This document shows, piece after piece, positions 24,016 to 52,107 of a stretch of DNA of 64,000 nt. Position numbers and translations under genes: made by a program. Below the pieces are notes generated by a model. The model searched no databases. It was not told the DNA's origin and worked only from the letters and a program-made list of their open reading frames with translations. Position 1 is the first letter of the stretch. Every line of letters starts with the position of its first letter. The DNA is taken from the NCBI GenBank assembly GCA_018824405.1, contig JAHJGO010000016.1, positions 124,001 through 188,000 on the forward strand. Direction: 5' to 3'. This DNA is from Gammaproteobacteria bacterium (GTDB lineage Bacteria; Pseudomonadota; Gammaproteobacteria; Burkholderiales; Sulfuricellaceae).

Positions 24016-24106
24016 AACCCCCCTCAGTCCCCCCTTGTCAGGGGGGAGACTGGCTCGCTCCTGCCCGGTTTGCCCCTCCCCTGACAAGGGGAGGCCGGGA
24101 GGGGTT
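24016..24106. repeat. GC-rich palindromic repeat, family A copy 1
   Basis: About 90 bp bounded by AACCCC and GGGGTT. It contains two hairpins, each with a core CCCCTTGTCAGGGG or its complement. It lies between the convergent ends of fbpC and dnaE and may act as a bidirectional transcription stop. Two further copies lie at 41616-41723 and 52022-52107. Confidence 0.85.
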
Positions 24107-40238: not shown

Positions 40239-42488
<2,250 letters not shown>

Positions 42489-44823: not shown

Positions 44824-45255
44824 TCAGGAAAATTGGCTTACCCAACTTTCAGGTGTCATTGCATTTGCGCCTGCCGGTGCGCGTGCCAGCAGTTCACGAT
44901 CCCAGGATACCAGCGGGGCACCGAGTCTGTCCGCCAGGGCGGCATAGCTTGCATCAGCGCCCCGGATAAAGCATTCGAGCGCGACTTTCTCTGCAGCGAG
45001 TGCCAGAGGTTCGTCAATGGGGTGAATGCGGATGGGGGTCCAGACACGGATTTGCTCCATTATCCGGGACGCAAGAGGGGTGTTTTTGCCTGGGCGTGAA
45101 AAAGCTGCCGCGGTTTCCGGAAAGAGTATGGCAGGCGCGCAGAGTTGCACGCTGCATTCAATCGAGGCACTCAGGAAATCCAGGCTTGCCAGGTGCTGGT
45201 CTTCGTCCGACTTGAATGCGGATACGAGTACCGAAGCATCAATAATCGCGAGCAC
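44824..45255 (-). CDS. VapC-like PIN-domain toxin
   Basis: PIN-domain RNase toxin of 143 residues. The active-site aspartates are in LAIIDASVLVSAFKSDED, the conserved acidic pair in FIRGADASYAALADRLGAPL and the closing D of LVSWDREL. The start is a GTG at 45255, 17 bases inside the antitoxin gene, with GAGGA upstream; a longer open frame exists but lacks PIN homology. Order antitoxin-toxin and the overlap are standard for VapBC. The natural target (often tRNA) is unknown. Confidence 0.87.
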   Translation of the reverse strand: MLAIIDASVLVSAFKSDEDQHLASLDFLSASIECSVQLCAPAILFPETAAAFSRPGKNTPLASRIMEQIRVWTPIRIHPIDEPLALAAEKVALECFIRGADASYAALADRLGAPLVSWDRELLARAPAGANAMTPESWVSQFS

Positions 45256-45514
45256 GGCGGTCCTCAAAAAGCTGTTGCATGGCCGATTTGTCGCTATTCC
45301 AGTCCGCCGCATTGTCCCGCGCCAATCGACTTATTTCGGTAGAGAAGCGGGCGGCCCGCTGGTGTGCGGTTTCCTGGTCGTCCTTGTTCGTGATCTGCCC
45401 CAGTTCGTGCTCGACGGCGCCGGTAATCAGTTGTTTCAATGTCATGCCACGGGCTACAGCGGCGGCCTTGGCCTGGCGAAAGAGATCATCAGGAATTTCA
45501 ATGGTGGTTTTCAT
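45239..45514 (-). CDS. VapB-like ribbon-helix-helix antitoxin
   Basis: Antitoxin of 91 residues. The N-terminus MKTTIEIPDDLFRQAKAAA followed by MTLKQLITGAVEHEL is a ribbon-helix-helix DNA-binding fold; the polar C-terminal part (NAADWNSDKSAMQQLFED) should bind the toxin. Directly upstream is a promoter with a perfect palindrome between -35 and -10, fitting autorepression by the VapBC complex. Confidence 0.87.
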   Translation of the reverse strand: MKTTIEIPDDLFRQAKAAAVARGMTLKQLITGAVEHELGQITNKDDQETAHQRAARFSTEISRLARDNAADWNSDKSAMQQLFEDRRARDY

Positions 45515-45615: not shown

Positions 45616-47151
45616 CTAGGCTGCCCGGCGGATGTAATCTCGTGGGCGGAATCCCAGCAGTCCGAGCGCGGCGAAGTAGGCGCCCGCGCCGACAATGACC
45701 ACCCAGCTCAAATGCAGCGCCCGGTCGAGGATGTCGCCAGTGAGCCAGGCTGCTTGGGGCCCCATGACATACCACAGGGTTGCACCCATGACCGTCAGCG
45801 CGACGCCAAGTTTGAGCAGGAAAACCAGCCACCCCGACTGGGGCTGAAAAATCTGGTGGCGGCGCAACTGGTAGTACAGCAGGCTGGCATTGATACAGGC
45901 ACCCAGACCGATGGCCAGCGCCAGCCCGGTGTGCTGAAGTTTCCAGACGAAGGCGAGATTCATGAGCTGGGTGGCGAACAGGGTGAAAATTGCGATCTTG
46001 ACCGGGGTGCGGATATTCTGCCGCGCATAGAACCCAGGCGCCAGCACTTTTACCATGATCAGGCCCACCAGGCCGGCGCTGTAAGCGACCAGCGCCTCGC
46101 GCGTCATCCACAGGTCGTGGGCGGAAAACTTTCCATAGTAGAACAGCGTGGAAATCAGCGGCACGGCCAGCATCGCCAGCGCCAGTGCCGCCGGCAGGGC
46201 CAGCATCAGGGTCAGGCGCAGCCCCCAGTCGAGCAGGCTGGAAAATTGCTCAGGCGAGTCGTCGGAATAGTGCTTGGCCAGCGAGGGCAAGAGAATGGTG
46301 CCGAGCGCCACGCCCAGCATGCCGGTGGGGAATTCCATCAGGCGGTCGGCATAGTAAAGCCAGGACACGCTGCCGGTTACGAGGAAGGAGGCAAAGATGG
46401 TGTTGATCAGCAGGCTGATCTGGGCAATAGAAACGCCGAATACCGCCGGCCCCATGAGTTTCAGGATGCGCCATACGCCTTCGTCCTTCAGGTTCAGGCG
46501 GAAGCGTGGCAAAAGGCCGACTTTTACCAGAAATGGAAGTTGAAAGCCAAGTTGCAGCACGCCGCCGAGCAGCACCGCCACGGCCAGCGCCAGCACCGGC
46601 GGGTTCATGTGGGGCGCCAGCCATAGCGCGCAGCCGATAAAAGAGAGGTTCAGTAGCGCCGGCGTGAAAGCGGGTACGGAAAACCTGCTGTAGGTGTTGA
46701 GAATGCCGCCTGCCAGCGACACCAGCGAGATGAAGAAGATATAGGGGAAGATGTAGCGCAGCAGTTGCACGGTGAGGTCGAATTTTTCCGGCGTGGCGGA
46801 GAAGCCAGGTGCACTGATATAGATTACCACCGGCGCGGCGAGCATGCCGATCAGGCTTACGCCCAGCAGGATCAGCGCCAGCAGCGTGGCGACATGGTCC
46901 ACCAGATCGCGCGTGGCATCGTGGCCGCGGCGCGTTTTGTATTCTGCCAGGATGGGTACGAAGGCCTGGGAGAAGGCGCCTTCGGCAAACAGGCGGCGCA
47001 GCAGGTTGGGCAGTTTGAAGGCGACGAAAAAAGCATCGGTGGCGATCCCGGCACCGAAGGCGCGGGCGATGATGGCATCGCGCAGGAAGCCGAGAATGCG
47101 CGAAATCAGGGTCATGCCGCCAACGGTGGCGAGGGCTTTGAGCAGGTTCAT
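45616..47151 (-). CDS. murJ: lipid II flippase MurJ
   Basis: Polytopic membrane protein of the MOP/MVF superfamily with about 14 helices, 511 residues, matching E. coli MurJ (511). It flips undecaprenyl-linked lipid II to the periplasm for peptidoglycan synthesis. N-terminal [20 protein letters not shown] and [14 protein letters not shown] and the following [20 protein letters not shown] are MurJ hallmarks, with the arginines of the central cavity. The gene begins 4 bases after the radical SAM gene, placing an essential envelope gene at the end of the cysM-lbpA-like operon. Confidence 0.95.
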
Positions 47152-47155
47152 GGAG

Positions 47156-48226
47156 TCAGATCGTCGCTGTTATTTTTATTTCGGCCAGTTTGTCATGCCG
47201 GTTGCTGATTGGCTTTGGTTCAAGCAACTCGAATTCGCTGGCGATGGAGCAGCAGGTGGGCAAAACATGCATCGGTCTGCCGAGTCGGGAGGCCAGTTCA
47301 ACCATGCCCTCGGAGGGATGAGCAAGTCCATTCAGCCCGGCCATGATGGCGTAGCTTTCGATTTCCAGCTTGGCGCGCCCCGGCGGACGGGCGCAGCCCA
47401 GCAACAGGGGAATGTCGGGGAGTGCATGCCGCGCCGCGCGGAAAAAATGGCCCACGGCATGGCTGTCGGGTGTGGTAAAAAGGCGTTGCGGAGGAGCATA
47501 AAATGGCATGGCAACCACCAGTACCACTGCGCACGGGGTGTGGCGTTGCAGCATGGCGAGCGCATTCCATTCGCCAAGCATCTTGCCGTAGTGCAGGCCG
47601 ATGACGATGTGCGGCACGACCTGCATGCGGGTAGCGGTCAGGGTTTCCAGGGTGCGTTCGAAATCGGCTACGCTGCGTTTCAGGTGATAGACCTGGGTGA
47701 TGGTGTCCTGTGCGCCGATGACATCCAGCATGGCGGTATCAATCCCTGCGTCTTCCATGCGCCATGCCGCATCCTGCTCCACCAGGGCCGTGTGGAGGGC
47801 GATCCTGAAGTGGGGAAAGGTACTTTTGATGCGACGCAGGGTGGGGTAATAGGGATCGTATTCGACCTCGTTGCGATGGTTGGAACCGCCGGTCAACAGC
47901 ATGCCGGCAGCACCCAGGGCAATTTTCTCGTTGACTACGCGCCACAAATCTTCCGCTGTGCGGGCGGGGATCATGGGTACGAGGATTTTTCCCTTGCAGT
48001 GGTCGCATTGCAGCTTGCAATCGCCACCGGTGATGGAGATGGCAGGCCAGCTTTCCTTGCCGCATCCTGGCGCTGAATCCAGGGAGCAGGACTTGAAGCC
48101 GGGAACGTGAAAGCGGACCGGTGCGGGTGCATGTTGCTGCCGCTCCAGTGCTGCGACCAGAGCAGGATCCAGCACGAGGTCTTCCAGCGCTTCGATTTGC
48201 CGGGTGGCGTAGAGCCAGTCGGACAT
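47156..48226 (-). CDS. radical SAM protein, candidate LipS-type lipoyl synthase
   Basis: Radical SAM enzyme of 356 residues resembling the COG1856-like group. The SAM cluster motif is C70-x3-C74-x2-C77 ([16 protein letters not shown]), preceded by C47 and C55 ([12 protein letters not shown]) and followed by C232, C278, C325 and C326, enough for an auxiliary Fe-S cluster. It begins 5 bases after the stop of a GcvH/LbpA-like gene. LipS1/LipS2 radical SAM proteins insert sulfur into octanoyl groups on such carriers in sulfur oxidisers and archaea, so that role is the best guess. The classical LipA signature is absent. Only one such gene is here, so a partner would lie elsewhere. Function is inferred. 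Confidence 0.75.
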
Positions 48227-48231
48227 GAAAG

Positions 48232-48675
48232 TCAGTCGCCGCAGCCAGCAAAGCCTTCAGCTGCCATCTTGGCTTCGAATGCCTCTGCCGTGGCGGGACC
48301 GCTTATCAGTTCTCCGCACTCGTTTTGCCACTGTGCGGGCGTCATTCTGACCACCCAGCCCTGAACATAGGGGTCGCGGTTCATCAGGCCGGGGTCAGCG
48401 TCCAGTTCTTCGTTGACTGCGATGATTTCGCCGCCCACAGGAGCCTTGACAGGCCCTACCCATTTTCCGGACTCGATGGTGGCGACCGATTTGTTCTGTT
48501 CGATGACTTTGCCGGGCTTTTTCGGCATGCAGGATACGATTTCTCCCGCCAGCGCACAGCCATATATGGTCATGCCCACGGTGATCGAGCCGTTTTGCTC
48601 AAGCCTTGCCCAGACGTTATTTTCGACGTTGTAATAAAGGTCATCGGGAAAATCGCAGCCGCGTACTGTTGCCAT
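48232..48675 (-). CDS. GcvH-like lipoate-binding protein (LbpA type)
   Basis: Single-domain lipoyl carrier of 147 residues, start set at MATVRGCDF since the upstream frame shows no homology. The lipoylation site is K71 in VATIESGKWVGPVKAP, a context typical of LbpA proteins of the sulfur-oxidising heterodisulfide-reductase-like (sHdr) system rather than glycine-cleavage GcvH (ESVK-type). GGEIIAVNEELDADPGL and GWVVRM complete the fold. No gcvT or gcvP is present, and neighbours are cysM and a radical SAM protein. Unlike usual LbpA it has several cysteines (C7, C40, C49, C120, C145). The sHdr genes themselves are not in this window. Confidence 0.8.
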   Translation of the reverse strand: MATVRGCDFPDDLYYNVENNVWARLEQNGSITVGMTIYGCALAGEIVSCMPKKPGKVIEQNKSVATIESGKWVGPVKAPVGGEIIAVNEELDADPGLMNRDPYVQGWVVRMTPAQWQNECGELISGPATAEAFEAKMAAEGFAGCGD

Positions 48676-48700: not shown

Positions 48701-49588
48701 TTATGCCGGAAATATACCGGTAGAGAGGTAGCGGTCGCCGCGGTCGCAGACGATGGAGACGATGATGGCATTTTCTGTCCGGGCGGAAACCTCAAGTGCC
48801 GCAACCAGCGCGCCACCCGATGAGATGCCGGCAAAGATGCCTTCCTCGCGAGCCAGGCGGCGGGTCATGTCTTCTGCTGCTGCCTGGCGGACTTCGACGA
48901 TCTGGTCCACCTGGCTGAAATCGCAGATTTTGGGCAGGTATTCCGGCGGCCATTTGCGTATGCCGGGAATCTGCGAGCCTTCGGACGGCTGGGCGCCGAT
49001 GATCTGGATGGCCGGATTCTGTTCCTTGAGGTAGCGCGAGCAGCCCATGATGGTGCCGGTGGTGCCCATGCTGCTGACAAAGTGGGTGATGGTGCCCTCC
49101 GTGTCGCACCAGATTTCGGGGCCGGTGCTTTCGTAGTGGGCGAGCGGATTGTCCGGGTTGGAAAACTGGTCGAGGATGATGCCCTTGCCTTCTTCGTGCA
49201 TGCGGTTGGCGGTGTCGATGGCCGCTTCCATGCTGCCTTCTTTCGGCGTGAGCACGATTTCCGCTCCAAAGGCGCGCATGATCTGGCGTCGTTCCACGCT
49301 CATGTGTTCCGGCATCACCAGCACCATCCTGTAGCCGCGCATCGCTGCCGCCATGGCCAGGGCAATCCCCGTGTTGCCGCTGGTGGCCTCGATCAGGGTA
49401 TCGCCGGGCCTGATTTCGCCGCGCGCCTCGGCGCGCATGATCATGGACAGGGCAGGGCGGTCTTTGACCGATCCCGCCGGGTTGTTGCCTTCCAGTTTGA
49501 GCAGCACGGTATTCGAGGTGTTGCCGGGAATGCGCTTGAGCTTGACCAGCGGAGTGTTGCCGACAAAATCTTCGATGGTTTTAAACAT
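48701..49588 (-). CDS. cysM: cysteine synthase B (O-acetylserine sulfhydrylase)
   Basis: PLP enzyme making cysteine from O-acetylserine with sulfide or thiosulfate, 295 residues. The PLP lysine is K42 in AGSVKDRPALSM, with the phosphate-binding TSGNTGIALAMAAA and the CysM-like MPEHMSVERRQIMRAFGAE. CysM rather than CysK is favoured by length and the MFKTIEDFVGNTPLVKL start. The start at 49588 has AGGA upstream and overlaps the diguanylate cyclase stop by 8 bases. Its position ahead of the lipoate-binding protein suggests a sulfur-metabolism operon. Confidence 0.93.
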   Translation of the reverse strand: MFKTIEDFVGNTPLVKLKRIPGNTSNTVLLKLEGNNPAGSVKDRPALSMIMRAEARGEIRPGDTLIEATSGNTGIALAMAAAMRGYRMVLVMPEHMSVERRQIMRAFGAEIVLTPKEGSMEAAIDTANRMHEEGKGIILDQFSNPDNPLAHYESTGPEIWCDTEGTITHFVSSMGTTGTIMGCSRYLKEQNPAIQIIGAQPSEGSQIPGIRKWPPEYLPKICDFSQVDQIVEVRQAAAEDMTRRLAREEGIFAGISSGGALVAALEVSARTENAIIVSIVCDRGDRYLSTGIFPA

Positions 49589-52021: not shown

Positions 52022-52107
52022 AACCCCCTCAGTCCCCCTTGTCAGGGGGAAGAGGGCAATCCTCTCCGAATAGCGCCTCCCCTGATAAGGGGAGGATGGG
52101 AGGGGTT
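52022..52107. repeat. GC-rich palindromic repeat, family A copy 3
   Basis: 86 bp bounded by AACCCC and GGGGTT with cores CCCCCTTGTCAGGGGG and CTCCCCTGATAAGGGGAG. Same orientation as copy 1. It lies between rfaE1 and hldD and could form RNA hairpins within the transcript. Confidence 0.85.

Follow-up and report, generated by a model that had tools for sequence, protein, structure and literature searches.

LbpA and the private pathway that lipoylates it have so far been known as parts of the sulfur-oxidizing heterodisulfide reductase-like (sHdr) system. LbpA proteins are marked by two cysteines that are not found in GcvH, one close to each terminus, with the C-terminal one standing next to a glycine (PMC6067878). 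LbpA receives octanoate or lipoate from sLpl, after which sulfur is inserted first by LipS2 and then by LipS1 (PMC10332631). In the proposal of Dahl and colleagues for sHdr, lipoyl-LbpA carries sulfane sulfur and the dihydrolipoamide dehydrogenase Lpd reoxidizes dihydrolipoyl-LbpA, giving NADH (PMC6067878). Here we describe an lbpA-lipS1 gene pair in a stretch of 64,000 nucleotides (the window) from a member of the Sulfuricellaceae (assembly GCA_018824405.1, contig JAHJGO010000016.1), which corresponds to G000:C24:124001-188000 of the host genome, G000 (3.03 Mb, 29 contigs). Judging from gene content, we lean slightly towards the view that lipoyl-LbpA, together with an Lpd-like protein encoded in the dsr operon of the same genome, is coupled to sulfur oxidation by reverse dissimilatory sulfite reductase (rDsr) in place of sHdr.

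The lipoate carrier and its radical SAM neighbor

The gene lbpA (48232..48675, minus strand) encodes a 147-aa predicted lipoate-binding carrier protein of the LbpA2 type that matches Pfam GCV_H (7.5e-33), and is separated by 5 bases from lipS1 (47156..48226, minus strand), in a run cysM-lbpA-lipS1-murJ that holds no gcv genes. Both open reading frames and their order agree with a first-pass annotation of this DNA, which had described a GcvH-like carrier with ESGKWVGPVKAP and, 5 bases later, a radical S-adenosylmethionine (SAM) gene, in a run between cysM and murJ without glycine cleavage genes. The lysine K71 within ESGKWVGPVKAP (codon 48463..48465, minus strand) aligns with the GcvH lysine, was kept in 144/144 LbpA rows of our alignment and is the predicted, and probable, site of lipoylation. 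C7, kept in 141/144 rows, and C145, which lies next to glycine in GFAGCGD, form the LbpA cysteine pair, while the host's own GcvH has neither a C7-type nor a C-terminal cysteine. The cysteine-richness of the carrier, previously called unusual, is real but in part typical, since C7 and the C-terminal cysteine are what defines an LbpA. The phylogeny of 144 LbpA proteins placed the window protein among LbpA2-side rows, outside the clade formed by the 56 LbpA1 sequences. An ordinary GcvH next to an unrelated radical SAM gene might be read from the GCV_H match and from two NCBIfam GcvH models that score 111 and 82 bits, both under their cut-offs. A true gcvH with gcvT and gcvP exists on another contig (G000:C3), however, and the LbpA tree, cysteine pattern, LipS1 match and synteny all contradict that reading, which we count as already refuted by tree and synteny and to which we assign next to no probability. 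As far as its sequence tells, the window carrier is LbpA and not GcvH, as the first-pass annotation had proposed, and it stands apart from GcvH in phylogeny, with the gcvT and gcvP genes accompanying a true gcvH of their own.

The 356-aa product of lipS1 is a predicted radical SAM lipoyl synthase subunit. It matched the NCBIfam LipS1 model with an E-value of 6.7e-55 (186.6 bits, against a model cut-off of 230), LipS1 being the sole NCBIfam family below E 1e-10; 15 aligned LipS1 orthologues, some of them out of sHdr clusters, likewise all matched the LipS1 family and no other. By synteny its gene is orthologous to the lipS1 of sHdr clusters, and its closest named LipS1 record comes from a Sulfurimicrobium metagenome-assembled genome (MAG; 86%). 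The earlier suggestion that this protein is linked to LbpA lipoylation is thereby strengthened, and its reported CxxxCxxC motif with six further cysteines was confirmed. The motif (C70-x3-C74-x2-C77; 47996..48019, minus strand), predicted to provide the ligands of the SAM [4Fe-4S] cluster, was invariant in 32 sequences; as for the other six cysteines, C278, C325 and C326 were invariant in the 32 homologues, C55 nearly so, and C47 and C234 variable. A sequence search of the PDB with LipS1 returned nothing meaningful. An AlphaFold model (predicted local distance difference test score 74, predicted template modeling score 0.79) best matched BioB, then HydE and, more weakly, LipA, a resemblance that fits a sulfur-inserting radical SAM enzyme and is no proof of LipS1. 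Taken together, the protein is classed as a LipS1-type lipoyl synthase of predicted activity. A second LipS1-like match in the genome, at G000:C17, proved to be BioB, located in a bio cluster.

Lipoyl assembly, dsr genes and an Lpd-like gene behind dsrR

The remaining genes for lipoyl assembly, slpl-lipT-lipS2, were found on the same contig, 20 kb from lbpA and 5 kb beyond the window end (slpl, G000:C24:193098-194135, NCBIfam lipoate-protein ligase model, 4e-42; lipS2, G000:C24:195202-196239, NCBIfam LipS2, 1e-59), with LipT encoded between sLpl and LipS2. The genome search for a second LipS and an LplA-like ligase that had been suggested thus succeeded, and the single radical SAM gene previously singled out as peculiar is not single. 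The predicted lipoyl-assembly set is complete, in two places, and the split between lbpA-lipS1 and slpl-lipT-lipS2 is common to G002 and G007. Gene order was surveyed in 27 stretches of relatives and 80 named loci. The order known from relatives is rhd-tusA-dsrE-shdrC1B1A-hyp-C2B2-lbpA1-dsrE-lbpA2-lipS1-slpl-lipT-lipS2, and compact clusters rhd-tusA-dsrE2-lbpA-lipS1-slpl-lipT-lipS2, devoid of the shdr block, occur in many genomes; the dsrE-type neighbor in the rhd-tusA cluster is DsrE2 according to its NCBIfam model. Because the ratios of nonsynonymous to synonymous divergence from the nearest congener, G002, ranged from 0.11 to 0.18 (lbpA 0.15, lipS1 0.16, slpl 0.12, lipT 0.18, lipS2 0.11), all five genes are maintained under purifying selection. 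This, and the presence of lbpA and lipS1 orthologues in dozens of genomes, argues that the pair is not a product of chance.

Several further observations were made around lip-type genes. Genes for FadL/OmpP1-like outer-membrane proteins, possibly concerned with octanoate or sulfur uptake, follow lipS2 in nearly all lip clusters (for example L078:10417-14537). Two Thioalkalivibrio MAG loci (L108, L154) carry lipS1-slpl-lipS2 clusters with no lbpA or shdr within the stretch examined. Another lipoate-ligase-like protein, 524 aa long and extended at its C-terminus by a cysteine-rich stretch, is encoded on G000:C5 (L082:5589-7163) beside an alternative (N-type) ATP synthase operon, and long forms resembling it were found in most relatives. 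A diverged LbpA-DsrE pair without C7 occurs in genomes without LipS1 (L176:8501-9333 and L177:335-1161), and adjoins likely selA/selB and formate dehydrogenase genes in L176.

The comparison set comprised 150 related genomes, and the sHdr status of all genomes was scored from sHdrB1 alone. LipS1 was found in 33 of these relatives and sHdrB1 in 16, all 16 being also LipS1-positive. Within the family Sulfurimicrobium/Sulfuricella (22 genomes), sHdrB1 was found in 0/22, though it was found in both genomes from the same order that served as controls, and the other sHdr subunits were not searched genome-wide. The first-pass annotation had named sHdr as the client pathway and advised a search for shdr genes; sHdrB1, the sole subunit searched, was not found in G000, and gene content points to rDsr instead. 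Because sHdrB1 is not in the genome, the carrier is an LbpA by sequence yet stands outside any sHdr-LbpA system. Watanabe et al. 2019 likewise noted for Sulfuricella a loss of hdrCBAhyphdrCB and a Sox-Dsr-Soe gene content (PMC6397845). In counts taken without kinship correction, dsrA was present in 16/17 LipS1-positive genomes without sHdrB1, which span four families (f1, f35, f45, f50), versus 22/117 genomes with neither (Fisher 1.5e-9), and the sole exception among the former, G021, is 74% complete. In G000 itself, dsrA (506 bits, above cut-off) lies within a complete operon on G000:C20 that starts at 14.2 kb, includes dsrB, E, F, H, C, M, K, L, J, O and P, and continues to dsrN and dsrR. 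Many g2 and g3 genomes (genera of this comparison) carry, far from the dsr operon, a second dsrA that stands alone (L195, L198, L217, L220, L222).

Located 12 bp behind dsrR, a further gene (G000:C20:27176-28672) encodes a 498-aa flavoprotein whose best NCBIfam model is lipoamide_DH (TIGR01350, 381.6 bits; next MerA, 270.7); because the equivalog cut-off of 408.8 is not reached, we refer to the protein as Lpd-like and not as a proven E3. Its top matches in the PDB are E3 dihydrolipoamide dehydrogenases, and both the redox CxxxxC pair (C41/C46) and the His-Glu motif HPSW[CA]E (HPSWCE in G000) were present in 14/14 Lpd-like proteins. The prediction, made after the G000 observation, that lpd would accompany the lip genes was checked on dsr stretches retrieved from LipS1-positive and LipS1-negative genomes, counting assessable operons only and excluding those truncated at contig ends. 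An lpd gene stood behind dsrN/dsrR in 14/15 Lip+ operons (G000, 002, 007, 008, 010, 012, 013, 016, 055, 065, 070, 114, 048 and 053) versus 0/19 Lip- operons (G001, 003, 005, 006, 011, 015, 017, 040, 044, 057, 063, 086, 090, 101, 102, 107, 122, 142 and 147; Fisher p 1e-8); within the family, the figures were 8/8 and 0/7. A tree from six Dsr proteins contained six independent pairs differing in the lip trait, and lpd followed the trait in 5.8/6 on average and never ran opposite to it, giving p = 0.03 only, the lowest value attainable with six pairs. Behind dsrR in G003, which has no lipS1, a stub of the Lpd N-terminus persists at 20 bp (22 aa, 54%), and loss of lpd is therefore likelier there than a late gain. 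The silent divergence of lpd is similar to that of dsrN and dsrR, as expected if lpd were an old member of the dsr operon. G017 gave a weak match to Lpd (L223), which falls within dsrN and was discarded.

The cysM-murJ site and other window features

The pair is flanked by murJ (45616..47151, minus strand; assigned from genus synteny) and cysM (48701..49588, minus strand; NCBIfam CysM, 531 bits), both of them outside the system. As these two genes adjoin directly in the congeners G001, G003 and G004, and as G005 has cysM-lbpA-murJ without lipS1, they are best regarded as a mere place of insertion. With the order cysM-lbpA-lipS1-murJ moreover restricted to the genus, a functional tie of lbpA and lipS1 to either flank was ruled out, and the link to cysM and murJ that had been put forward as a feature of the locus turns out to be a positional accident. 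The lone LbpA of G005, a single-contig genome (L174:9598-10032), has kept K71 and lost the C-terminal cysteine, and no LipS1, LipS2, sLpl or dsr-linked lpd was found in that genome. A murJ-lbpA-cysM arrangement of Sulfurimicrobium type on a contig of a Sulfuricella MAG (L175, G018:C142) looks like a stray contig.

Elsewhere in the window, a VapBC-like toxin-antitoxin pair (44824-45514) lies between murJ and cysS; it is present in G002, and no such pair was seen in the genomes G001 and G003, which have cysS closely behind murJ. A short palindromic repeat, CCCCCTTGTCAGGGGG, occurs at 24030-24046, 41646-41709 and 52034-52049 (16 matches vs 1.2 expected), and two of its copies lie in frame inside a YgiQ-like radical SAM open reading frame (40239-42488), adding residues.

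Proposed coupling to rDsr and known systems

In the mechanism that we propose, sLpl(AB) would load octanoate onto K71 of LbpA2, and sulfur would be inserted by LipS2 and then LipS1 with electrons from LipT. The sHdr complex and LbpA1 may have been lost together in Sulfurimicrobium/Sulfuricella, such that lipoyl-LbpA2 would now serve rDsr. Dihydrolipoyl-LbpA would arise while sulfane sulfur is passed on or oxidized in the DsrEFH/DsrC/DsrAB relay, and the dsr-linked Lpd would act as the redox partner that reoxidizes it, most likely yielding NADH. The direct contact of LbpA may be DsrC, DsrEFH, DsrL or DsrAB. Sequence shows the parts and their co-occurrence; we infer the coupling itself, including the partner of LbpA within Dsr and the direction of electron flow, by transferring to Dsr the carrier and Lpd recycling step proposed for sHdr. 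To the broader notion of a lipoate-dependent rDsr branch, in which the Dsr relay hands electrons or sulfane sulfur to lipoyl-LbpA2, the dsr-operon Lpd makes NADH from them, and sHdr and rDsr are alternative clients of one carrier module, we give even chances.

A number of points weigh against such a coupling. It is a correlation, albeit a repeated one; the lip genes and dsr operon lie on separate contigs in G000, leaving co-occurrence alone as their tie, and most of the genomes compared are MAGs. The sHdrB1-only search, the sub-threshold lipoamide_DH score and the modest p value from six pairs belong here too. G054, which is Lip+ and has both sHdr and dsr, lacks an lpd at its dsr genes. LbpA is missing from most rDsr organisms, hence the module is optional, and the lone LbpA of G005 shows that it can decay and is dispensable in some species.

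Three other explanations were considered. The role of LbpA and Lpd might lie upstream of Dsr, in the trafficking of sulfur by a rhodanese/TusA/DsrE2 relay to a common pool, with a tie to Dsr through a shared substrate only. In favor of this, lbpA comes directly after rhd-tusA-dsrE2 in related genomes, and in one family a likely soeABC set precedes; however, rhd-tusA-dsrE2 was present in all family genomes tested, LbpA-positive or not, and unlike the dsr-linked lpd did not covary with LbpA, making this explanation unlikely. That LbpA serves another Hdr-type complex, such as an HdrAACB/Qmo-like or divergent sHdr complex, and not Dsr itself, gains from the coverage of our search, which was sHdrB1 only, and from Watanabe et al. 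2019, who included HdrAACB/QmoABHdrCB among the gene sets for sulfur oxidation that they scored across Proteobacteria (PMC6397845). We nonetheless hold it to be quite unlikely, given that the lpd covarying with lipS1 sits in the dsr operon. Finally, the lip genes may be decaying leftovers of a lost sHdr without present function, as might be read from their patchy presence in the genus, with cysM and murJ abutting in three congeners, from the reduced state of G005, and from the hdr cluster loss in Sulfuricella already inferred by Watanabe et al. 2019 (PMC6397845). Yet all lip genes are under purifying selection with frames intact after relocation to two places, have been retained without sHdr in four or more families, and covary closely with the dsr-linked lpd, and we regard functionless remnants as likewise quite unlikely.

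If the coupling of lipoyl-LbpA to rDsr is true, lipoate would serve, in some lineages, as cofactor in a route of sulfur oxidation that is widespread, NADH could be gained directly from the oxidation of sulfur, which would spare reverse electron flow, and two pathways held to be almost exclusive alternatives would be joined. No earlier account of a coupling of LbpA with Dsr, or of lipoamide dehydrogenase with dsr genes, was found in the open-access literature. With the sHdr-LbpA system and its sLpl(AB)-LipS1/LipS2 pathway (Cao et al. 2018, PMC6067878; Tanabe et al. 2023, PMC10332631), the present locus shares orthologous LbpA2, LipS1, LipS2, sLpl and LipT, in the same order in relatives, as well as rhodanese-TusA-DsrE transfer genes adjoining the lip genes; it differs by the absence of an sHdr complex (from the sHdrB1 search) and of LbpA1, by the placement of the set in two locations, and by the inclusion of an Lpd-like gene in the dsr operon. 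That this family lacks sHdr and has dsr was already reported, with the loss of hdrCBAhyphdrCB in Sulfuricella, by Watanabe et al. 2019 (PMC6397845), whose searched passages do not treat retained lbpA/lip genes or a dsr-linked lpd. Hdr-like clusters of archaea that are linked to a dihydrolipoamide dehydrogenase (PMC6067878; Metallosphaera cuprina, PMC4175335) similarly combine lipoate-binding proteins and Lpd in one sulfur-oxidation system, but there Lpd accompanies Hdr-like genes, whereas here, in Betaproteobacteria, it accompanies dsr genes. Compared to the known rDsr system (dsrABEFHCMKLJOPNR), finally, the dsr operon of G000 is complete, including dsrL, dsrN and dsrR, and is set apart by the additional Lpd-like gene behind dsrR, which was seen only where LipS1/LbpA is present.
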